Shown here piece after piece: positions 6,601 to 54,427 of a stretch of DNA of 64,000 nucleotides (position 1 is its first letter; each line of letters starts with the position of its first letter). The stretch is taken from NCBI RefSeq assembly GCF_025460835.1, contig NZ_JAMXAY010000006.1:1-64000 (forward strand), given 5' to 3'. The notes beneath the pieces were generated by a model. It had not been told where the DNA came from. It made no database searches and saw nothing but the letters and a program-made list of their open reading frames with translations. This DNA comes from Parapedobacter soli (GTDB lineage Bacteria; Bacteroidota; Bacteroidia; Sphingobacteriales; Sphingobacteriaceae). A program made the translations under genes and the position numbers.

Positions 6601-7593
6601 GTTCGCCGCGATCGGCGGTCCCACAGCCGCATCTCGATTAAATGGTTGTATCGAAAATGAAGATAAAACGCTCAGATTAAGCAATGCCCCCGGTTCTTCG
6701 ACCACGACGCGGACAACCTGTCCCGGATCAGACGGCGTTGGGAATATCGTATTTAAATAAATCGTATTCAGCGCACCGACTCCGACGTTCATCGTCGCAT
6801 AGTCGGTATAATCGGCATTGATAACGTTATAGGGATTGGTAACTCCACCGAGTGAGGTCAAAGCACCGATGGCTGCCGATCGCGTACCAGATAATACATC
6901 TATTGGTTGATGCTTTTCTTCACAATCCGCATACGTATAATCCTCATAAATATAAGCATGGAATAGCTGATTCGACAACAAAACGCTTAAACCATTTCCA
7001 CTTAATTTGACAAATATCCCCTGGTAATCTTCATCCGGTGTAAATGTGACCTCGAATTGCCCTGTTCCATTAAGAAGATTCAATAAGGCTGCACCTGAAT
7101 ATTCGACCGTCAGATTGTTTGTATTATAACCGGCTCGATTCAGCAAACCAGCATTAACAGGCTCCAAATCATTAAAGTAGCCAATCTCAACATTGCTCAA
7201 CAAACCCAACACCTCAGCGGGGAAAGACGACTTCACTGTAACAGGAGTATTTGCGGGTATTGTCCTAACATTCGAGTGGTTTCCGTCCGTCGTGAATTCC
7301 AAATATTGCGTGGCCGAGAGCAACCCCAGAACTCCTACCGGAACACTCAATGTAGAATGCGTTGTAACGTTCCCATCGATTGCATTTCCCGCGTCAGATA
7401 CTTCGCCAGTCAGTAACCCTAAGAGATTGACCCCCGCTTCATATGTCCCCTGAAAATTAGCATAAGTCCGCTTTTGATCCTGCCCCCTCACCTCCCCAAT
7501 CCAACCGGGGGAGACAAGCAACAATGGAACAAGCACAAGTGTGTAGATAAAACGCAAAAAAGAAAATTTCGGATAAGTAGATGATGTTTCCAT
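1..7593 (-). CDS. Giant secreted multidomain adhesin-like protein (C-terminus outside window)
   Basis: The frame is open without a stop from an ATG at 7593 to the left edge, giving at least 2531 residues; the C-terminus is missing. Residues 1 to about 38 form a signal peptide (basic start, hydrophobic FIYTLVLVPLLLVSP, then VRGQDQ). Three diverged copies of one roughly 330-350 residue module start near residues 42, 553 (CPPAFSRTYA) and 1822 (CPPVYNRVYN). Each has DAGNAxDG-like segments and LLGLTG or LLGL motifs. Residues about 1052-1451 hold three DUF11-type repeats (YTIHVRNDGNQDLTGLTI and relatives). About 1462-1811 are Ig-like domains of the CHU_C-associated type (VCEGDDVTLTASGTGATYQW). From about residue 2318 near-identical 79-residue repeats begin. 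Such proteins are usually exported by the type IX system and act at the cell surface in adhesion or gliding, but the sorting domain lies outside the window, so that is inference. Confidence 0.9.
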   Translation of the reverse strand, partial: METSSTYPKFSFLRFIYTLVLVPLLLVSPGWIGEVRGQDQKRTYANFQGTYEAGVNLLGLLTGEVSDAGNAIDGNVTTHSTLSVPVGVLGLLSATQYLEFTTDGNHSNVRTIPANTPVTVKSSFPAEVLGLLSNVEIGYFNDLEPVNAGLLNRAGYNTNNLTVEYSGAALLNLLNGTGQFEVTFTPDEDYQGIFVKLSGNGLSVLLSNQLFHAYIYEDYTYADCEEKHQPIDVLSGTRSAAIGALTSLGGVTNPYNVINADYTDYATMNVGVGALNTIYLNTIFPTPSDPGQVVRVVVEEPGALLNLSVLSSFSIQPFNRDAAVGPPIAANGALISARLLPGTQKYELAFKVDVPFDRVELRFDNTVTALTSLRVYEVSRLPRVMVIEDPTELAAALTGCGSVNLLAAIANYQPDYYDYHYYTAPSGGTALPSSTVGASGTYYIEAVDKVTGCISPRVPVNATVNAYPEINFSPAQTTFVIAPGGSVTLPTPTVSNVTTSSIQWYDYNGNAFSPTGAINFPTAGVYIYYVVATSDAGCQSAATVVVIVNSDGCPPAFSRTYATNQSFTTTSLLGINLGSVVDAGNAADGDISSYSTINETLNLLGLTGESSQTLTWDTDVNAGTPVTVKLARDYGVASVIGGIYVAPVDGTGAEIGPRVSVDPNLAAAVNGLNVFEHTFIPTGPTGAATAYRGVKVIMESAVNALQSIRVYDAYYHNTGAADCSGGDVVDVFGGYEAPLLNLNLASGLIGVIDAGNAVDRDLSTATIMRNIAGVAALSKLEVVFNTPSIEGDSLQIVLGEPGSLLDVGLLDELRIQRFFGNVPVEAPLVIDENLLRLRLLSGGASYSVLMVPTTVPYDRVKITYGGVANVVTELNVFEVSRKAATELPGTPNPELNSLEICQGELIDLSGLPDDCGTAYVIYDAPFGGNLLDGAAITALGVGTHTLWIQPVRYGCESLARGILTVTVTEPLAAPILDPTGTVVIEEGDAATLEITNTYPAGTTYKWFKDGTEVTGETGASLTVSNFTVSDIGNYTVQAFGVCASPLSDAVRLTLLDVDIWKSADQTVVSGGEEITYSIHIRNNTTVPITGLMVRDDIPAHTTYVDGSADAGGTLSGAAVFWNDIDVAANSTTTLIFKVHVDEDLTDVPEIANMALIRTSPTAADMKSWPPNATNDGPDESGPNETIIPVSPDKSIVAWKSYKVGGDATITSVTGGEEVEYTIHVRNDGNQDLTGLTIADPVPAGTTHVGGGTLVGSNVEFGPFDLAFGQTKTFTFRVQVDDNLTTVTVISNVAEVTVPGEPTVQSYPPVDNTTTPTQPDETAPPGTDIDVAAVRTVTFTKVGRNQDDLRQAAPGDVVTYTFTVKNTGNKDLQSLVITDPLLSDNVTFQPSGSDGALNGTTWEFPAGNLAVGATATATLVVDIANPLVDIGETTISNTATLTFEDENNAPLPPQTATDNLPVSCTPVVATDITASDIDACLGEEVTLTASYDPATLSITNAHFIWYVDGNEIGRADADGAGTASINYTFTQAGSTQVEIFLEGDDACFQTPGRFITVDVEAIPTAPTVTATSDEVCEGDDVTLTASGTGATYQWYKDGAVLTGETANTLVVTGAVMVDAGVYTVRALTTNGCESSASLPVEITVNPVPAQPTITPDGPTTLCAGGYVILESSDAGAGSSYAWYLDDGTSGPQLLTGETQRHLVAAQSGEYTVVVANASGCESVASLPVLVTINPAPEIEITSGSLTHAVETGVEVDIPTFVEETGVTYSWYNSDGTGFSGSVFGPFAEAGTYVYTLVAAVNATGCESSVTVIINVYNPGDCPPVYNRVYNDAANAGTVARLLGIPIGNITGATNAASDDVTTYSQLSETLGTSLLGLTGQTSQTLSWSEQVPAGTAVSVKLGKQFTLAQVVGGLHVVAVDGAGNPVSRPMAVESNIAYAAGSVNVFEYTFVPVDDNNEVVAYQGVKVYMQSLLGALQTFRIYNAYYHEVGTPDCDENDVRDVLHGVENPISGVNTLSALVGVDNPWNAVDGDESAVATLNNAVGVNAQTRLEILYNTPVIAGDRITMKIRHTAALVEANVLKWFTIQPYMGTTPVGDAIDENRLLEVNILTGGQEAEVSFVADRPFDRIKILYGGVASVLSSLEVLEISRTLPTPELGPGNDNKFVICEGEDIDLTGPDDCTIYRLYDAPTDGNVVDVTNLTSAGSPYTYYVQAIRFGSCEVGERTPVEITVNALPGLPVANNLEVCETPLAGEVFYDVSVVDADHELRYYESATASTPLTDVPVVNSATVGLYTVYVSQVNTVTGCEGPRVAVTIEVVGTLPPALTNRDQVFCEIDGPTVADLNDDGATGDVVWYTVATGGTPLAADAALTTGTYYAAQIGDNCESVERTEVEVTITETPAPDLTNRDQVFCEIELPTVADLIPDGATGDVVWYTVATGGTPLAADAALTTGTYYAAQIGDNCESVDRTEVEVTITETPAPDLTNRDQVFCEIDGPTVADLITDGATGDVVWYTTATGGTPLAADAALTTG

Positions 7594-7905
7594 TTAGCTA
7601 TGGGATTATAACCGTAAAATTATTTATCAATAGATGCTATCTGTTGGGCCAACGCTCGTAACTCCACGGTCCTCGCAGTGAACCCTATGTTTTTCTTAGT
7701 AGGTAATGAAGCAGGCCATAAACAAGGTACCCTTCATCAATTGCTGTCCGGCAATAAATCACAAAAAATTATTGTCCAAACAAAAACGGTACGGTTATTG
7801 TAATTAACTTCTACGGTAGATGTTTTGACATTTCTGGAGAGCGGCCTCGCTCTTCGGAAGTGTCTATTTTCTCCCCATCTACAACCAAACCTCCCGTTTT
7901 ATACG

Positions 7906-7913
7906 CAAATATA
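7906..7913 (-). promoter_or_regulatory. Candidate -7 box for the giant adhesin
   Basis: On the minus strand this reads TATATTTG, matching the Bacteroidota -7 consensus TAnnTTTG. It is about 310 nt upstream of the adhesin ATG, which would leave a long leader. The nearest TTTG for a -33 element sits closer (about 15 nt) than usual, so support is moderate. Confidence 0.35.
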
Positions 7914-8195
7914 GGCTGGCACCTACACCAAACCCTTGTTCACTTTGTTCATTTTACCTGAATGCTGTTCGTTTCATTCACTTATCAATATACACCATGT
8001 TTTTCCACCTATTCTTCCTATATTTGGCACTGAAAGCCTTTTGAAATGTTTAAGTTTTCGCCCGTATGGGGAGTTATAGTGCTGGCAATCGTGGGAAGAA
8101 AGCCATCGCCATATTATCAAGTTCTAATATGTATTGAACGAAGAATATTCAAATTATTCAATGCAATAGTTACTTCGAAGGCAGTAGAAATATGA

Positions 8196-8203
8196 TATTT
8201 TTG
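8196..8203 (+). promoter_or_regulatory. Candidate -7 box for the ATPase regulator
   Basis: TATTTTTG matches TAnnTTTG and lies about 190 nt upstream of the chosen ATG at 8396. No clear TTG was found at the usual -33 distance. Confidence 0.35.
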
Positions 8204-8395
8204 CGAAACCCCGGCTTGCAAAAAAAGGTAAAATCGACCGTGGGACTTCAGCTAGCGCTTCGAAAAACAAGATTCTAACGAAACACATAATGCTTATGCA
8301 ACGTTTTTATAGACCGGCGATCTGAATAACGAAATCAACGTTTGAATCGAATCCGTAATTTAAGGGGTCGTTGCCTTAAACATCTACTATCTTTT

Positions 8396-10906
8396 ATGAA
8401 AACATATCTACACACTTATTTTGATAAGTTAAAAAAAATCGTATTAACTAAAGCCGCCATTAACCAGATAGTTCCTGCAGATTGCTACCGGCTGGCATTG
8501 GAAATCAAAGATGCTACCAATAAAAGTGTAAGCGAAACAACGCTCAAGCGGGTATTTGGCTTCGCTTCATCCGCCCATCAACCGTCCATTTATACGCTGA
8601 ATGCACTTGCGCAATACTGCGGATTCGAAAGCTGGGATAGTTTTTATACCGATCTGGAACAGAACAAGCTGCAAACCATGCAACAGCGAACATGGGGGAA
8701 AATTTCATTGAATGCAACAAAAATCAGCCTTTTCAACATCCAAAGCAATAAATATAAGTGCGGTATCCCGTACCATCTGACCATTGACCGAGAATACATC
8801 AATCACTTCGTTGAGCGTTTTGCAAAAAGCGGTGCAACCACAGGCATCCTTCACGGACCCGTGGGCTGTGGAAAAACAATAGGCATTTCCCGCTGGGTCG
8901 AAAAACAAATCAGCCAGGTATCCGTCGGTTCGTCCAACGATATTTACCTGTTCACAAATGGCCTGTCGTTGTTGCAAGGCACAGCATTCGGTTACCATAG
9001 CCATCGCTGGCTCGCTCACCTCCTGGGGTTTGAAACCACCGAGCACCTCGATACGTTTATGGAAGAGCACCGTAATGGGGCACCGGGAAATTTCTACCTG
9101 GTCGTCGATGAATTGCACAACGACTCAGTGTCCGATCGGCAGTTTTATATGGTAATCTGCCAGTTCATGGACATGGTCAACCATTTCGCCCAATTTAGCT
9201 GGTTCCGTATGGTGCTGATCCTACGAACCACGTCGTTGCTGAAGTACGAGAGCTTATTCAAAAAGACGGTTATCAATCCACAGTGGTTTTCCATGCAATA
9301 TGGTGGCCGACCAAGGGAGGCTGCTAGTATGCCGCCATTCTCACAAACCGAACTCCAACAATTGGCTCAAAACATCAATGGCTCATTCAAGGCCTACCCC
9401 TTACAAAAAGTTCGCAATGCACAACTTATCCATACGCCCCTGTTTTTCCAATACTATTATAAATTGGTGGGCGACCGTCTAGACCCTTATCAGATTACAC
9501 CCTTTGAAGAGTACCTGGCTATCACACAATACCTGAAAAAGAAAGTATTTAATGGTGTGAATACATTGAGCAAACAGTCGCTTTTGGAAGAGCTATCATC
9601 CGCGATTGAACAGCAAGATGGCCGGCTGCAGGTCAACTGGAAACAAGCTTACCCCGCCATCAGGCGACACCGCGTAGCCTACAACGACCTGCTCTATTCG
9701 GGGCTGTTGAACGAAACAAATGGCGACCTCGACATGCGCCAGCAAACTATCGTGCAATTTCAATCAGACACCATTGCGAATTACTTTATCGCCCTCGAAC
9801 TATTCAACATGTATAAGGAGGCGACCGAAATCATCGACGCTTTACATAGATCACCATTCGATGACCGCTCGAAAACAGAACAGCTGAAATGGCTGCTGTT
9901 GTTCCAAATGGAATCGGCTGACTTGCAGCTGATCAACCAACTGGAAAACATATCCTTCATACACGAGGAGACGTTTGAAGTTATCACTTTCATCTGCGAC
10001 GGCCTTCACAAGCTTGCCAAAGATGACACAGCTACGCGAGACAAAATAAATGAGGCGATTCAGCAAACACCGTTCATAGACTACATGCTTCGTCACATGA
10101 GCTTCCAAGTCGAATTTGAATCCTGCCTGGAAAAATTGCTCTATTTCAACCTAACAGAAATGCATGAAATTTACGCGCGTGGCAAGCTCGCTACTATCGC
10201 GTTGCTGAAATGGGACGAAGAAGCGCTACTCGAACAACTCGAGCACTTGGCTGCCTTGCCCCCGGAAGCATATACGGCGTTTGCAATCAACCCGATTCTT
10301 TTGTTAACTTATCTCTACCAGCACTTCAAAGGGGGAGGCATCGATCAACAGGTCTTAGTCGAACTAAACACCCTGTCTACTCGCCTGCCATTGGCAAAAA
10401 CGCTGGCGGCACCCTTCTTTATCGACGTGTTGCTATACTTATACATCAAGATATCCGGAAATACTGCGATCGCATTCCCCTATCTGGAACTCTTCGACAC
10501 ACGATTTAAGAAAATAAAACAAACAAATCGTTTCGAAGTCGATGTTGAGACGCTTATCCGTGCGTTTTATCGTTGGGAGAGTGGCGATGTTGAACAGGCG
10601 ATATCGGACGTCAGGAAGCTGTCGATATACAAGTATGATAACCCTACTTACCGCCTCATGCATGCTGTCTTCCAATTGCAAACGGGCAATTGCGACAAAG
10701 AAAAAGACCTGGTAGAAATCGGCCGACGTGCCATTGCCCTGTGTGAAGCCCGCGACTTGAAATTGGTTGAGGCATACTGCCGAATCCTTATCCTGGAGCG
10801 TGTACCGAAAGAAGAGCGCCTCGGTCATATCAACAACCTCAAATTCCAGTTTACGGCCTATGGATATAAGGCAGGATTGGGTGCCTTATCCCAGCGATAT
10901 GGGTAA
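8396..10906 (+). CDS. STAND-like P-loop ATPase with DNA-binding-like N-terminus
   Basis: 836 residues from the ATG at 8396 (MKTYLHTYFDKLKK); a TTG at 8342 is possible but gives an unlikely N-terminal extension. Residues about 20-90 (SETTLKRVFGFASS, YTLNALAQYCGFESWDSF) resemble the short helix-turn-helix-like domain that heads many large Bacteroidota regulators. A Walker A motif GPVGCGKT lies at about 154-161 and a Walker B-like strand LVVDE at about 235-239. The remaining 550 residues are alpha-helical without recognised motifs, consistent with TPR-like sensor repeats. There is no transmembrane segment, so it should be cytoplasmic. The family resemblance suggests a signal-responsive regulator. 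Its divergent position next to the giant adhesin makes the adhesin a plausible target, but that is inference. Confidence 0.7.
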   Translation: MKTYLHTYFDKLKKIVLTKAAINQIVPADCYRLALEIKDATNKSVSETTLKRVFGFASSAHQPSIYTLNALAQYCGFESWDSFYTDLEQNKLQTMQQRTWGKISLNATKISLFNIQSNKYKCGIPYHLTIDREYINHFVERFAKSGATTGILHGPVGCGKTIGISRWVEKQISQVSVGSSNDIYLFTNGLSLLQGTAFGYHSHRWLAHLLGFETTEHLDTFMEEHRNGAPGNFYLVVDELHNDSVSDRQFYMVICQFMDMVNHFAQFSWFRMVLILRTTSLLKYESLFKKTVINPQWFSMQYGGRPREAASMPPFSQTELQQLAQNINGSFKAYPLQKVRNAQLIHTPLFFQYYYKLVGDRLDPYQITPFEEYLAITQYLKKKVFNGVNTLSKQSLLEELSSAIEQQDGRLQVNWKQAYPAIRRHRVAYNDLLYSGLLNETNGDLDMRQQTIVQFQSDTIANYFIALELFNMYKEATEIIDALHRSPFDDRSKTEQLKWLLLFQMESADLQLINQLENISFIHEETFEVITFICDGLHKLAKDDTATRDKINEAIQQTPFIDYMLRHMSFQVEFESCLEKLLYFNLTEMHEIYARGKLATIALLKWDEEALLEQLEHLAALPPEAYTAFAINPILLLTYLYQHFKGGGIDQQVLVELNTLSTRLPLAKTLAAPFFIDVLLYLYIKISGNTAIAFPYLELFDTRFKKIKQTNRFEVDVETLIRAFYRWESGDVEQAISDVRKLSIYKYDNPTYRLMHAVFQLQTGNCDKEKDLVEIGRRAIALCEARDLKLVEAYCRILILERVPKEERLGHINNLKFQFTAYGYKAGLGALSQRYG

Positions 10907-10929: not shown

Positions 10930-11529
10930 TCAGTAAGGTATCCTCAATTTCTGGAATACAAAATGCCAGAGCCAAATAGGTCCCAGCAACAGCAGTTTGA
11001 GGAAGCTACGGAACGGTACTGCAACTTTTTCCATATTCTTGCCAAGGTATAACGCCAGCAACGAAGCCATCAACAGGCAGGCACATACCGACCATACCGC
11101 GGGGCCGCCGCCCTGTTCCACGTACTCCAATTGGACGATTAAAAAGCTATATACCCCAATGGTAACAAACATGGCATAAGATAAGGTCGGCGCCAAACGC
11201 AGGTAGTAATACACCACACCGGCAATAAAAAACGAGCCCCAATTGAGGAATGTATCATAACCATACTTCTTCAGGAGCGCAATTTCGGGAAAGGGCACCA
11301 TCCATACCAACCCCAAGATCGAAAACGCGAAAACAGGGATAGCTATCCATTGGATTACCCGGTTTACCGGGTGCCGGTATTGCTGGTTGAAGGCATCGAA
11401 ATAAACCTCCACCGGCCGTTTGGGCACTTCCTGTCCCTTCTTTTTCTTCTTTACTCCTGACTTACGACTCACGCTTACCACTAACCATTGACAATTAACA
11501 ATTAACCATTGACAATTAACCATTAACAA
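10930..11529 (-). CDS. Mpo1-like (YGL010w/DUF962) membrane protein
   Basis: Up to 199 residues. The conserved start of the family, a helix followed by YRHPVNRVIQWIAIPVF, lies near residue 50. It is followed by four to five hydrophobic segments (VFAFSILGLVWMVPF, FIAGVVYYYL, AMFVTIGVYSFLIV, LLMASLLALYLG) and a WLWHFVF C-terminus. Yeast Mpo1 is an iron-dependent dioxygenase of 2-hydroxy fatty acids; bacterial members are mostly uncharacterised. The N-terminal 20 residues of the longest frame are encoded by a 7-bp repeat tract (MLMVNCQWLIVNCQWL), so the true start may be a GTG at 11481 or 11472, just outside the tract. It is downstream of rny on the same strand. Confidence 0.75.
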   Translation of the reverse strand: MLMVNCQWLIVNCQWLVVSVSRKSGVKKKKKGQEVPKRPVEVYFDAFNQQYRHPVNRVIQWIAIPVFAFSILGLVWMVPFPEIALLKKYGYDTFLNWGSFFIAGVVYYYLRLAPTLSYAMFVTIGVYSFLIVQLEYVEQGGGPAVWSVCACLLMASLLALYLGKNMEKVAVPFRSFLKLLLLGPIWLWHFVFQKLRIPY

Positions 11530-11597
11530 TTAACAATTAACCATTAACAATTAACCATTAACAATTAACCATTAACCATTAACCATTAACCATTAAC
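11481..11597. repeat. 7-bp tandem repeat tract (TTAACCA/TTAACAA words)
   Basis: About 16 units of 7 bp built from TTAACCA, TTAACAA and TTGACAA words in mixed order with strict 7-bp phase. The tract lies between the rny stop codon and the Mpo1-like gene and runs into the 5' end of the latter's longest frame. Confidence 0.9.
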
Positions 11598-13152: not shown

Positions 13153-13176
13153 CTTTTGCTTGTTTGTGTTTCTATG

Positions 13177-13297
13177 CTACTCTTTAATTGCTACTCTTTA
13201 ATCTTTAATCCTTACTCTTTGATCTTTAATCCTTGCTCCTCAATCCTTACTCCTTGCTCCTCAATCCTTACTCCTCAATCCTTACTCCTTGCTCTTA
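13177..13297. repeat. 7-bp tandem repeat tract (TTAATCC/TTACTCC words) in the rny leader
   Basis: About 17 seven-base words in phase: CTACTCT, TTAATTG, TTAATCT, TTAATCC, TTACTCC, TTGCTCC, TCAATCC. It sits directly upstream of rny and downstream of the 6S RNA candidate, so it would be in the rny leader if the two are co-transcribed. Confidence 0.9.
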
Positions 13298-48909: not shown

Positions 48910-48982
48910 AATATAATCGTGTTAACAGTTATAACCCCGTTATTGTTTGGATGCCGAAACACCACGATTTCCATATAGCTGG

Positions 48983-49047
48983 ATATGAGACAATAGATAT
49001 GAGACAATAGACATCAGACAATAGACAACAGATATGAGACAGCAGAC
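48983..49047. repeat. 7-bp tandem repeat tract (GACAATA/GACATCA words)
   Basis: About nine 7-bp words in phase: GAGACAA, TAGATAT, GAGACAA, TAGACAT, CAGACAA, TAGACAA, CAGATAT, GAGACAG. Located just downstream of the rlmH stop codon. Confidence 0.8.
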
Positions 49048-49079: not shown

Positions 49080-49553
49080 TCACTCATGGTGGTATGGTTC
49101 CCCTTTCAAGATGGTGAATGCCCGGTATAATTGCTCCACAAAAAACAACCGCACCATCTGGTGCGAGAAGGTCATCTTGGAAAGCGAAATACGGCTATTG
49201 GCGCGCTGGTAAAGCACATCGTCAAAACCATAAGGTCCACCTACAACGAACACCAAGTGCTGTACGCTGCCAACCATCAGCTTATTGAGGTAGTCGGCGA
49301 ACCCCACCGATCGGTATTCCTTCCCGCGTTCATCCAGCAACACCACATGGTCGCCGGGCGACAGTTGCTTGAGAATGGCTTCCGCTTCCCTGGCCTTCTG
49401 CTGATCGGTGCTTAGGTGTTTCGTATTTTTAACATCGGGGATGGTAACCAACTGGAAAGGGATATAGTGTTTCAGCCGCTGCTGAAATTTTTCGATAAGC
49501 GCCGTATAGTAAGTATCATCGGTCTTCCCTACGCACAACAATATTATCCGCAT
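49080..49553 (-). CDS. rlmH: 23S rRNA pseudouridine-1915 N3-methyltransferase
   Basis: 157 residues (MRIILLCVGKTDDTYYTALI). SPOUT-family knot motifs are present: HVVLLDERGKEYRSVGFADY, LVFVVGGPYGFDD and SKMTFSHQMVRLFFVEQLYR. It methylates pseudouridine 1915 in helix 69 of 23S rRNA using SAM. The first codons overlap the 3' end of hepT by 10 nt, so it is probably co-expressed with the toxin-antitoxin pair. Confidence 0.95.
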   Translation of the reverse strand: MRIILLCVGKTDDTYYTALIEKFQQRLKHYIPFQLVTIPDVKNTKHLSTDQQKAREAEAILKQLSPGDHVVLLDERGKEYRSVGFADYLNKLMVGSVQHLVFVVGGPYGFDDVLYQRANSRISLSKMTFSHQMVRLFFVEQLYRAFTILKGEPYHHE

Positions 49554-49891
49554 GTCTTCAATATCTCTTCGAGCACCGCCTTCATTGGCGGAAGATCGTA
49601 TTGCGCGATATCCAAAACGATCCGTGTGTTTACACCAAAGTACTCATGGATGGAAATGTTTCGGAAGCCTTTGATAGCTGCCCAGGGAATTTCTTGGTTT
49701 GCGTCTTTTGTCTCCGGAGTAATAGCATTGCATGCCTCTCCAATGATTTCAATCTGCTTAATGGTTGCAAACCGTTTTTCGGAATTAGAAGCGAAAGATT
49801 CATAATCTACTCGATCGAGGTAATTTTCAATCTCGGTGATAGCATCAAGAATATGTTGAATCCTCACTTTATCCCCGAGCGGACTTCTCAT
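49544..49891 (-). CDS. hepT: HepT-like ribonuclease toxin
   Basis: 115 residues, all helical. The HEPN catalytic motif RX4HXY is intact as RNISIHEYF. The rest (IQHILDAITEIENYL, AWAAIKGF-like IPWAAIKGFRN) matches the DUF86/HepT family, an RNase toxin whose partner MntA inactivates it by adding AMP to the tyrosine. It overlaps mntA by 23 nt upstream and rlmH by 10 nt downstream. Confidence 0.9.
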   Translation of the reverse strand: MRSPLGDKVRIQHILDAITEIENYLDRVDYESFASNSEKRFATIKQIEIIGEACNAITPETKDANQEIPWAAIKGFRNISIHEYFGVNTRIVLDIAQYDLPPMKAVLEEILKTCG

Positions 49892-50174
49892 AGATTAGAA
49901 TCTTATCATGCTCTATATAAGGGCGTACATATTTCGAAAGCCCTTCTTCGGTGACTAAGTCAACTCCTTTTTTCAGGAGAACAGCTAGGTCGTTTTGAAA
50001 AGTAAAAAAACGGAGGCCAATGGGTTGACTGTGGTCCAGTTCGACCAAGATATCCACATCACTGTCCGCATCGGCTTCGTTTCTAGCGAATGATCCGAAA
50101 ACATAGGCTCTTTTCACAGGGGTTCCTGTAAAATAGTTCCCGATTGCATCAATATCTTCTTTATTGAGTTTCAT
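49869..50174 (-). CDS. mntA: MNT-domain nucleotidyltransferase antitoxin
   Basis: 101 residues from ATG 50174 (MKLNKEDIDAIGNYF); an upstream ATG at 50231 would lie before the promoter box. The nucleotidyltransferase motif GSFARNEADADSDVDILVEL carries GSx10DxD. MntA-type enzymes AMPylate the HepT catalytic tyrosine, neutralising it. The start is only 8 nt downstream of a TAAGTTTG box. Confidence 0.9.
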   Translation of the reverse strand: MKLNKEDIDAIGNYFTGTPVKRAYVFGSFARNEADADSDVDILVELDHSQPIGLRFFTFQNDLAVLLKKGVDLVTEEGLSKYVRPYIEHDKILIYEKSARG

Positions 50175-50182
50175 CAATACTA

Positions 50183-50190
50183 CAAACTTA
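50183..50190 (-). promoter_or_regulatory. mntA-hepT(-rlmH) promoter box
   Basis: Minus-strand TAAGTTTG, 8 nt before the mntA ATG, implying a leader of only a few nucleotides. Confidence 0.55.
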
Positions 50191-50358
50191 GCTAAATCAT
50201 CATTTACATGCAAATCACAAAAGCGCCCCATCTGTTTATGTGCTTAGACATCAGCCAGCATCGACGCCGCCAAAACGCTGACACCATCGCCACATTGGTG
50301 TTTTGGCATCGCTTTTGCATTCGTTAGGCTTTTTAAACAAAATCATCAAATCATAATC

Positions 50359-51284: not shown

Positions 51285-51584
51285 TTACTCGGCTTCTTCC
51301 TTTTCAAGGATCACGAAAACATCTTCGTTATCTTTTTTCATCTGATAGCGCTCGCGGGCTACACGCTGCTGCTCCTGCGGGTCGGTGTTCAGGTCATGGA
51401 TGGCTTTGGTTATACGCGCTATTTCCGTCGTGTAAAATGCTTTTTCGCTCTTAAGGTCCCTCAGCTGGCTGTAATAGCTGTATTGGGTGGCCATATCGTG
51501 CCGATCGAAAAACAACATCCACACGGCGAATGCGACGATGGCAATGAGGTACTTATTGCGTATAGCAATGAGGAAACGTTCCAT
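51285..51584 (-). CDS. divIC: FtsB/DivIC-type septum formation protein
   Basis: 99 residues from ATG 51584 (MERFLIAIRNKYLIAIVAF); longer starts lie upstream of the promoter box and are rejected. One membrane span (YLIAIVAFAVWMLFF) is followed by a coiled coil (LRDLKSEKAFYTTEIARITK) and EQQRVARERYQMKKDNEDVF, the conserved DivIC/FtsB end. It takes part in the FtsQ-FtsL-FtsB divisome complex. The gene normally follows eno; here a 1.2-kb repeat field separates them. Confidence 0.9.
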   Translation of the reverse strand: MERFLIAIRNKYLIAIVAFAVWMLFFDRHDMATQYSYYSQLRDLKSEKAFYTTEIARITKAIHDLNTDPQEQQRVARERYQMKKDNEDVFVILEKEEAE

Positions 51585-51589
51585 GAATA

Positions 51590-51597
51590 CAAACTTA
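51590..51597 (-). promoter_or_regulatory. divIC promoter box
   Basis: Minus-strand TAAGTTTG ends 5 nt before the divIC ATG, so the transcript should be leaderless or nearly so. The repeat field begins about 50 bp upstream. Confidence 0.55.
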
Positions 51598-51649
51598 GGT
51601 AAATTTCTTTTATATGCAAAATGGGGGTGCATTCCAAATTCCTGCACCG

Positions 51650-52870
51650 GTCAAGACGCATCCAAGCCATGCCAACACAATCACGTGTTACACCGAAACC
51701 GTGTCGTCTTGCCTCAATACAAGGCTGTGGCTAGTCGCTACAATACTGTAGCGACTCGGAATAACGTTGTGTTGCCTCAATACAAGGCTGTCGCGAGTCG
51801 AAACGATGCTAGGTCAAGTCGAGACAGTATCGTCTCTTATCAACACAAGGCTGTGGCTAGTCGAAACGATGCCAGGTCAAGTCAAGACAGCATCGTCTCT
51901 TATCAACACAAGGCTGTGGCTAGTCGAAACGATGCCAGGTCAAGTCAAGACAGCATCGTCTCTTATCAACACAAGGCTGTGGCTAGTCGAAACGATGCCA
52001 GGTCAAGTCAAGACAGCATCGTCTCTTATCAACACAAGGCTGTGGCTAGTCGAAACGATGCCAGGTCAAGTCAAGACAGCATCGTCTCTTATCAACACAA
52101 GGCTGTGGCTAGTCGAAACGATGCCAGGTCAAGTCAAGACAGCATCGTCTCTTATCAACACAAGGCTGTGGCTAGTCGAAACGATGCCAGGTCAAGTCAA
52201 GACAGCATCGTCTCTTATCAACACAAGGCTGTGGCTAGTCGAAACGATGCCAGGTCAAGTCAAGACAGCATCGTCTCTTATCAACACAAGGCTGTGGCTA
52301 GTCGAAACGATGCCAGGTCAAGTCAAGACAGCATCGTCTCTTATCAACACAAGGCTGTGGCTAGTCGAAACGATGCCAGGTCAAGTCAAGACAGCATCGT
52401 CTCTTATCAACACAAGGCTGTGGCTAGTCGAAACGATGCCAGGTCAAGTCAAGACAGCATCGTCTCTTATCAACACAAGGCTGTGGCTAGTCGAAACGAT
52501 GCCAGGTCAAGTCAAGACAGCATCGTCTCTTATCAACACAAGGCTGTGGCTAGTCGAAACGATGCCAGGTCAAGTCAAGACAGCATCGTCTCTTATCAAC
52601 ACAAGGCTGTGGCTAGTCGCCACAATACCGTAGCGACGCGTAACAACGTTGTGTTGCGTCACCACAGCCCTTGGATGCGGCAAGACAAGCACGGGCTGAC
52701 TCGGCACGGTGTTGTGTCGGTTCGATAGGGTATTGGTTCAAGCCGGAGCAATGCCGGGTCGCCTCCACACAGCGTTGTGTACACTCAGAACGATGTTGTG
52801 ATGGGGTGAGCGTATGCTGTGTCGGTATGGGACAGTATTGTTTTGACATGGGACAACATTGTCTCGGGCA
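51650..52870. repeat. 21-bp degenerate repeat field with amplified 63-bp core
   Basis: The whole stretch between the divIC promoter and the eno terminator follows a 21-bp period. Units are centred on ACA..GTTGTGT-like words, for example at 52640-52870 acaacgttgtg, acagcgttgtg, acgatgttgtg, acagtattgtt, acaacattgtc. In the middle (51881-52637) three 21-bp units have fused into a 63-bp unit repeated 12 times almost perfectly, preceded by one variant copy at 51818. Each 63-bp unit holds a 7-bp inverted repeat (ACGATGC / GCATCGT). There are no unique spacers, so it is not CRISPR. Confidence 0.95.
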
Positions 52871-52911
52871 GCTTTCGCAGTGCAAGCGGCTCCTTACCGT
52901 GGTAAAACGGA

Positions 52912-52952
52912 ACATAAAGAAGGCCGCCCCAATTTATCATTGAAACGGCCTT
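52912..52952 (-). terminator. eno terminator
   Basis: Minus strand AAGGCCG (52952-52946) pairs with CGGCCTT (52926-52920), loop about 19 nt, followed by CTTTATG. It begins 23 nt after the eno stop codon. Confidence 0.6.
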
Positions 52953-52974
52953 GTTTATGTTAATGGATGGTACG

Positions 52975-54366
<1,392 letters not shown>

Positions 54367-54427
54367 AGTCTCCAATTCTTAACAAGCTACTCTTAGTGTG
54401 AATACTACACTATTAGTAATGATATGG

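Follow-up and report, generated by a model that had tools for sequence, protein, structure and literature searches.

What is a tandem array of 21-bp units doing between eno and divIC on a bacterial chromosome? Such an array lies in a stretch of 64,000 nucleotides from Parapedobacter soli (positions 1 to 64,000 of contig NZ_JAMXAY010000006.1), hereafter the window. Bacterial tandem repeats with a constant size of 20-21 nt and a variable sequence have been described by Subirana and Messeguer (PMC8161180, PMC6749651). In the sections of the former paper considered here, the repeats are presented as non-coding and as forming several sequence families per genome, their length of two helix turns is noted, their role is left unexplained, and a protein needing a constant repeat size, nucleoid binding and small RNAs are discussed (PMC8161180).

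Anatomy of the array

The array consists of 58 tandem 21-bp units in a single register, with 25 distinct units among them (Table 1). A sequence-only reading of the locus had described diverged 21-bp units on both sides of a core in which a 63-bp block is repeated 12 times with almost no change, and direct reading, TRF and the identity at lag 21 all bear out this description. One diverged 63-mer precedes the 12 identical ones by direct reading, and TRF reports a 63-bp repeat at 51777-52619 with 13.4 copies and 99% matches. In the array edges, the self-identity at the control lags of 7, 14, 20, 22, 28 and 35 is 0.18-0.25, and none of the 58 units fits better at shifts within ±3 bases. The diverged edges and homogenised centre noted by that reading are present, and 21 bp fits two helical turns as it had remarked. 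The count of identical blocks may be wrong, because the genome is a draft of 177 contigs. The 21-bp units abut one another, with none of the unique spacers of a CRISPR.

Table 1. Features of the eno-divIC region (positions in the window)
Feature	Position	Strand	Basis and remarks
divIC-type septum formation initiator	51288-51584	-	Pfam; start codon ~70 bp from array
Whole array	51655-52872		58 units; majority unit AACAATGCTGTGTCGAGTCGA
Left edge	51655-51843		9 diverged units; lag-21 identity 0.49
Core	51844-52599		63-bp block (3 units) x12, all identical; direct reading and TRF
Right edge	52600-52872		13 units, mostly diverged; lag-21 identity 0.46
8 right-edge units pairing one by one with units of the C128 array	52705-52872		68% identity, ungapped
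Inverted repeat resembling a terminator, in the gap from the 3' end of eno to the array	52920-52952	-	direct reading
eno (enolase)	52975-54267	-	Pfam; gene end ~100 bp from array

The Pfam scan around the array took in eno, divIC and a neighbouring DUF3078 gene; the DivIC score of 28.8 bits is just below the cut-off of 28.9.

Could the array encode a heptapeptide-repeat protein? The unit length is a multiple of three, and a 413-aa frame that spans most of the array matches Pfam LbR_Ice_bind (E 3e-16), while a second plus-strand frame over the array matches GerPB above cut-off; the plus-strand frames with these matches lie at 51487-52728 and 51767-52633. However, stops occur in every frame over the full array, so that no open frame runs through it, related arrays have periods of 20, 22, 40 and 44, and the mismatches between the window array and its relative on contig C128 fall 17/16/21 over the codon positions, with no clear excess at the third. 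The coding reading was rejected for these stops, the non-triplet periods and the missing codon-position bias, and we give it practically no credence. The two Pfam matches look like false ones that arise from periodic sequence, and they could mislead annotation.

The window array fits the published, unexplained class of constant-size 20-21-nt repeats. It likewise has at least four regular repeats with no change of register, it is likewise non-coding, and the P. soli genome likewise holds several repeat families that agree in size and differ in sequence (at the loci L024, L080, L082, L083 and L135).

Linkage of related arrays to a gene family

Does the 21-bp word occur elsewhere in the genome, as the sequence-only reading had left to be seen? 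A fixed pattern search of the P. soli genome gave no match; a DNA search returned one further relative of the window array, on contig C128. A stretch of 168 bp within the right edge aligns without gaps with the C128 array at 68% identity in register, a value that drops to 0.42-0.49 at offsets of one or two units (21 or 42 bp), and the unit similarity of the two arrays is 0.90, compared with a background of 0.27 ± 0.09. The C128 array sits 3' of a gene for a 213-aa protein. A profile built from the two arrays recovers both of them and a third array, in the congener G008, which likewise lies 3' of a gene from this family, whose product is 71% identical. Out of several hundred first-look candidates in each genome this search scored 140-150, and therefore weaker relatives may be missed; across 300 genomes of the order, with stricter filters and 15 candidates scored per genome, the profile found the P. 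soli genome only. The window array has no DNA-similarity match among plasmids. Sampling of genome stretches turned up 21-bp-type arrays twice in 212 kb of the P. soli genome and once in 400 kb of G008, and not at all in 400 kb, one contig each, of three congeners that lack the 213-aa gene family.

The proteins of this family are about 205-215 aa long, with N-terminal helices followed by an FN3 fold. The AlphaFold2 model of the 213-aa protein is confident (pLDDT 91.6, pTM 0.55) and places helices at 16-30, 43-63, 66-94 and 98-103, then strands; the 50 matches that Foldseek listed per fold search look like FN3 or tail proteins. For two family members, Pfam gave only a weak fn3 match and one weak chance match, and for four members NCBIfam gave no family match. 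In PHROGs, three out of four members matched tail-protein families; the matches cover the linker and the FN3 part (best E 3e-7), except for one weak portal match.

Searching 41 genomes with the 213-aa protein gave six matches in the P. soli genome, 11 in G008 and four in three other genomes, some of those in the first two being partial or interrupted, and none in seven other congeners. A seventh P. soli match, on contig C171, came from a later profile search. A pattern-based search of 84,980 species gave 28 loci, one of them in Ignavibacteriota, one in Acidobacteriota and the others in Bacteroidota and Verrucomicrobiota, and in the taxonomic family of G354 there were matches in 23 of the 195 genomes, with up to 15 per genome. 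The FN3-type gene family is patchy and often multi-copy. Carriage by phages or plasmids was considered and rejected: the pattern scan found no viral contig with the gene, plasmids gave no match, and the phage search gave a single match confined to the FN3 part of the protein. A defence role was likewise set aside, as PADLOC had no match for two FN3-type proteins.

How regularly are these genes accompanied by arrays? We scanned 1.2 kb on the 5' side and 1.5 kb on the 3' side of each gene copy for periodicity at lags of 10-45, and called an array where the best lag was 20-22 or 40-44; the control segments were 1.2 kb each, taken from the same loci at least 2.5 kb from the gene. The 55 copies comprise the 21 loci of the 41-genome search, nine loci picked from the profile search, in which most of the remaining matches covered FN3 alone, and 25 of the 28 pattern-search loci, L155, L157 and L162 being left out as repeats of loci already counted; partial or interrupted copies such as L093 and L136 are included. 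At z of at least 6, an array of about 21-bp period lies beside 43 of the 55 copies (36 on the 5' side and seven on the 3' side) and in none of the 217 control segments; at a looser z of at least 5, the counts are 45/55 and 1/217. Among the 12 copies with no array at the fixed threshold, the array of L091 is outside the scanned span and that of L079 is weak.

It should be noted that the lag set and the threshold were fixed after the first loci had been seen. For this reason, a held-out set was chosen by protein profile alone and scanned with unchanged rules: 30 loci were returned out of 93 matches, and of these five, in G354, G443, G568 and G779, were left out as already used. Arrays were found at 19 of the remaining 25 copies, all on the 5' side. 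With L260 removed, since it repeats L164, the count is 18 of 24, again all 5', and six copies have no array at the threshold.

Other genes recur beside the pair. Among the 55 loci, a CHAP-domain protein recurs at nine, a membrane protein and a lipoprotein at eight each, a DUF5675 protein at seven and HTH proteins at six plus three. Since they recur mainly at Parapedobacter and Sphingobacterium loci, only the gene and the array are found at most loci. The HTH gene, found at nine of the 55 loci and mainly in these two genera, encodes a coiled-coil type protein just before some arrays; its Pfam match is below cut-off, and PADLOC gave one HTH protein a weak SoFic match (E 0.004). The membrane protein, CHAP protein and lipoprotein around the 213-aa gene at L055, L082, L085 and similar loci presumably resemble a lysis cassette, and the L055 neighbour is a CHAP protein by Pfam and an endolysin by PHROGs. 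LytTR-type binding sites were also considered: LytTR-like genes are visible by eye near L083, L085, L091 and L092 and not at most other listed loci, and the candidate was dropped. At L134, the frame of the FN3-type gene continues in frame through the upstream array (7265-8563, 433 aa).

We could not find a gene partner of 20-21-nt arrays in print. A survey of constant-size 20-21-nt repeats by Subirana and Messeguer reportedly appeared in J Bacteriol in 2020, being cited in their later paper; no description of the gene-array pair was found in the literature searched, most subscription journals and this survey lying outside its scope. A word search of PMC8161180 gave no instance of palindrom, upstream, Bacteroid or fibronectin. 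Compared with the repeats as presented there, the arrays here differ in being tied to one gene family and in the dyad symmetry of many of their units. Repeats of 20-21 nt have been reported in many bacteria with no known partner or role, and the linked gene family offers a first starting point for experiments on their function.

Symmetry and turnover of the units

The period of the arrays is mostly 21, with 20, 22 or 44 at some loci, and each locus usually has a unit sequence of its own. Against column shuffles, 22 of 44 arrays have a more palindromic unit profile at p ≤ 0.01 and 31 of 44 at p ≤ 0.05, so about half fall short of significance at 0.01; among the held-out arrays, 8/19 have dyad symmetry at p ≤ 0.01. 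The profile of the window array is dyad-symmetric against column shuffles (p = 0.001), while an earlier fit, in which the register was broken, gave p = 0.088.

Are these palindromes RNA hairpins? The array might be transcribed, with its units acting as hairpins or as repeated small RNAs. Two 63-bp blocks (126 nt) are predicted to fold better than shuffles on both strands (z of -3.1 on the plus and -4.6 on the minus strand), and this, together with the palindromic units, speaks for such a role; the hairpin ACGATGC/GCATCGT proposed by the sequence-only reading forms part of the predicted fold. Within the arrays, however, the paired arms do not covary: compensatory cells number 838 against 880 expected for 39 arrays on both axes, and a test of a single axis gave 582 against 610. 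An excess on one axis at p ≤ 0.01 is seen in three of the 39 arrays (L130, L160 and L164) and counts in favour of RNA. Rfam has no match in the window at gathering score. Covariation within the arrays does not support the hairpin as the functional form, and we regard an RNA function as improbable. The lack of arm covariation makes it more likely, without proving it, that the units are symmetric sites for a protein on the DNA than that they are hairpins of RNA. In tandem centromere or operator arrays of the sopC type, each direct repeat likewise contains an inverted repeat; the present arrays differ in that they are chromosomal and occupy many loci, and no partition genes were seen by eye.

How does the unit change as the protein diverges? 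The three pairs of proteins with an identity of 90% or more have a common unit. At 68-82% identity, some pairs keep it (L083/L092, 0.78; L024/L055, 0.78) and others have unrelated units, such as L150/L152 (76% identical, unit similarity 0.32), L084/L085 (77%, 0.33) and L024/L085 (69%, 0.32); for L083/L091, whose proteins are 82% identical, the similarity of 0.43 is weak. These values are to be read against the background given above and assume a fixed register, so that arrays with indels, such as L085, may look less alike because their profiles blur. In Sphingobacterium, the differing units of L150 versus L151-L153 can be read by eye, independently of this assumption. The unit sequence can apparently be replaced while the period and the gene linkage stay, and unrelated units beside proteins 69-77% identical argue against an FN3-type protein that reads base sequence. 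The arrays may be a bacterial case of selection on the length and symmetry of a repeat while its sequence turns over.

Taken together, the best explanation of the window array, to which we give about an even chance, is that it would be an orphan from a module of gene and array, with phased dyad sites for a DNA-binding protein. The module would consist of one gene for a protein of about 205-215 aa, with helices and then an FN3 fold, and a tandem array of about 21 bp, and would be widespread and chromosomal. Each unit at the gene-linked loci is a candidate dyad-symmetric DNA site, and the spacing of two helical turns would line up all candidate sites on the same side of the helix, which would let a protein load cooperatively next to the gene. 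The candidate binder is the FN3-type protein, the coiled-coil HTH protein or a host factor, and the loaded protein would probably control the adjoining gene.

Orphan arrays and the eno-divIC copy

No copy of the 213-aa gene family lies in the window, and whole-genome searches found none on contig C134. Judged by its units, the window array is an orphan member of the gene-linked class of ~21-bp arrays; it has no such gene beside it, whereas its C128 relative has. Other gene-less arrays with a match to a gene-linked array in their own genome are found on C120, C96, C90, C140, C13, C123 and C24 (at 100 kb), the matches of C123 and C24 being weak (64-68% identity). No orphan was found for the L083 family, and one of the four orphans compared, in G008, had no match among the gene-linked arrays tested. 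In the parent module of the orphans on C120 and C90, L082, an HTH gene stands before the array; both orphans retain the 3' end of this gene and look like modules that lost their genes. No remnant of an HTH gene was seen at the window array.

Could the array be the body of an element like a MITE or BIME that moves as a unit? Orphans of the same families occur at several sites, and three of the eight orphans, the window array included, follow closely on the 3' side of eno, gapA and frr; sites immediately 3' of highly used genes may be preferred. These three start about 80-100 bp past the gene (gapA, L237 at ~5414; frr, L239 at ~4683; eno, window 52872). A precedent is BrickBuilt of Porphyromonas gingivalis, described in the part of the paper considered as an intergenic MITE that holds a 23-bp minisatellite, a single family with a leader, a tail and inverted-repeat ends (PMC4596501). 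On that description the two are alike as intergenic tandem repeats of about two helix turns in members of Bacteroidota, and they differ in the unit, 23 nt there and 21 bp here, and in the ends, because no 8-mer, direct or inverted, is common to the 140-bp end stretches of the window array (51561-51700 and 52841-52980).

REP/BIME units, with the RAYT gene (REPtron), are palindromic and extragenic, with gene-linked copies and dispersed ones, and lie 3' of genes. Unlike these, the units here have no sequence in common between loci, and Pfam found neither a transposase domain nor a Y1 (HUH) transposase in two members of the linked FN3-type family and the module proteins scanned. RAYT-like genes were seen by eye beside L132 and L137 only. 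In addition, the module flanks retained at C120 and C90 fit gene loss better than mobility. A mobile element is, in our view, quite unlikely.

When did the array arrive at its site? The eno-divIC gap is about 1.39 kb in the window. In G005, the sole congener where the two genes were found adjacent, the last eno codon and the divIC start are 86 bp apart, with no array, and the genes are also adjacent with short gaps in two more genomes of the same family (L011 and L015). Within 1.5 kb of eno in 20 relatives, some cut by contig ends, TRF found no comparable array; a 21-bp period with about two copies only was seen near eno in three of them (L012, L018 and L021). Because the gap is short and array-free in G005, the array was most likely gained in the lineage of the window. 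The sequence-only reading had placed the array directly upstream of a divisome gene promoter; it does lie close to the divIC start codon, and no result ties it to divIC, since G005 lacks the array and the same unit family adjoins another gene elsewhere.

Is the eno-divIC copy, then, simply an inert satellite, that is, a leftover or selfish tandem repeat grown by slippage or unequal exchange with no role at its site? For this copy an inert relic is a strong rival: there is no gene copy nearby, the array is missing between eno and divIC in G005, the 12 identical blocks suggest recent expansion, and two other orphans look like decayed modules. However, an inert satellite leaves unexplained why a single gene family has arrays of this period beside it in several phyla, why 58 units, the diverged ones included, keep an exact register, and why the units are dyad-symmetric. 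We hold it to be a serious possibility that falls somewhat short of probable. On the preferred explanation of an orphaned module, the eno-divIC copy would have come from a module by copying or gene decay, its centre would owe its uniformity to recent unequal exchange or slippage, and the copy would now have a weak effect of its own or none; it may be a relic.

A wider proposal can be offered tentatively, as one that may well be wrong: that the helical-FN3 gene and the two-turn palindrome array form one undescribed chromosomal system in four phyla, which would read period and dyad rather than sequence, that its loci would renew their units at a kept spacing, and that dispersed copies, including the eno-divIC array, could be acted on in trans.

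Some other features of the window and of the related loci were seen. Near the array, two small overlapping minus-strand genes at 49544-50231 resemble what we take to be a HEPN and MNT pair, and at the window start (2-620) TRF reports a 237-bp repeat with 2.6 copies and 92% matches. A 7/14-bp tandem repeat (AGTATTC) occupies 54275-54369, immediately upstream of the eno start, and TRF found more 7-bp-based arrays in the window at 11477-11597, 13175-13296 and 48982-49047. Tandem repeats of 7/14 bp also occur 3' of the FN3-type gene at two Verrucomicrobiota loci, L140 and L159.
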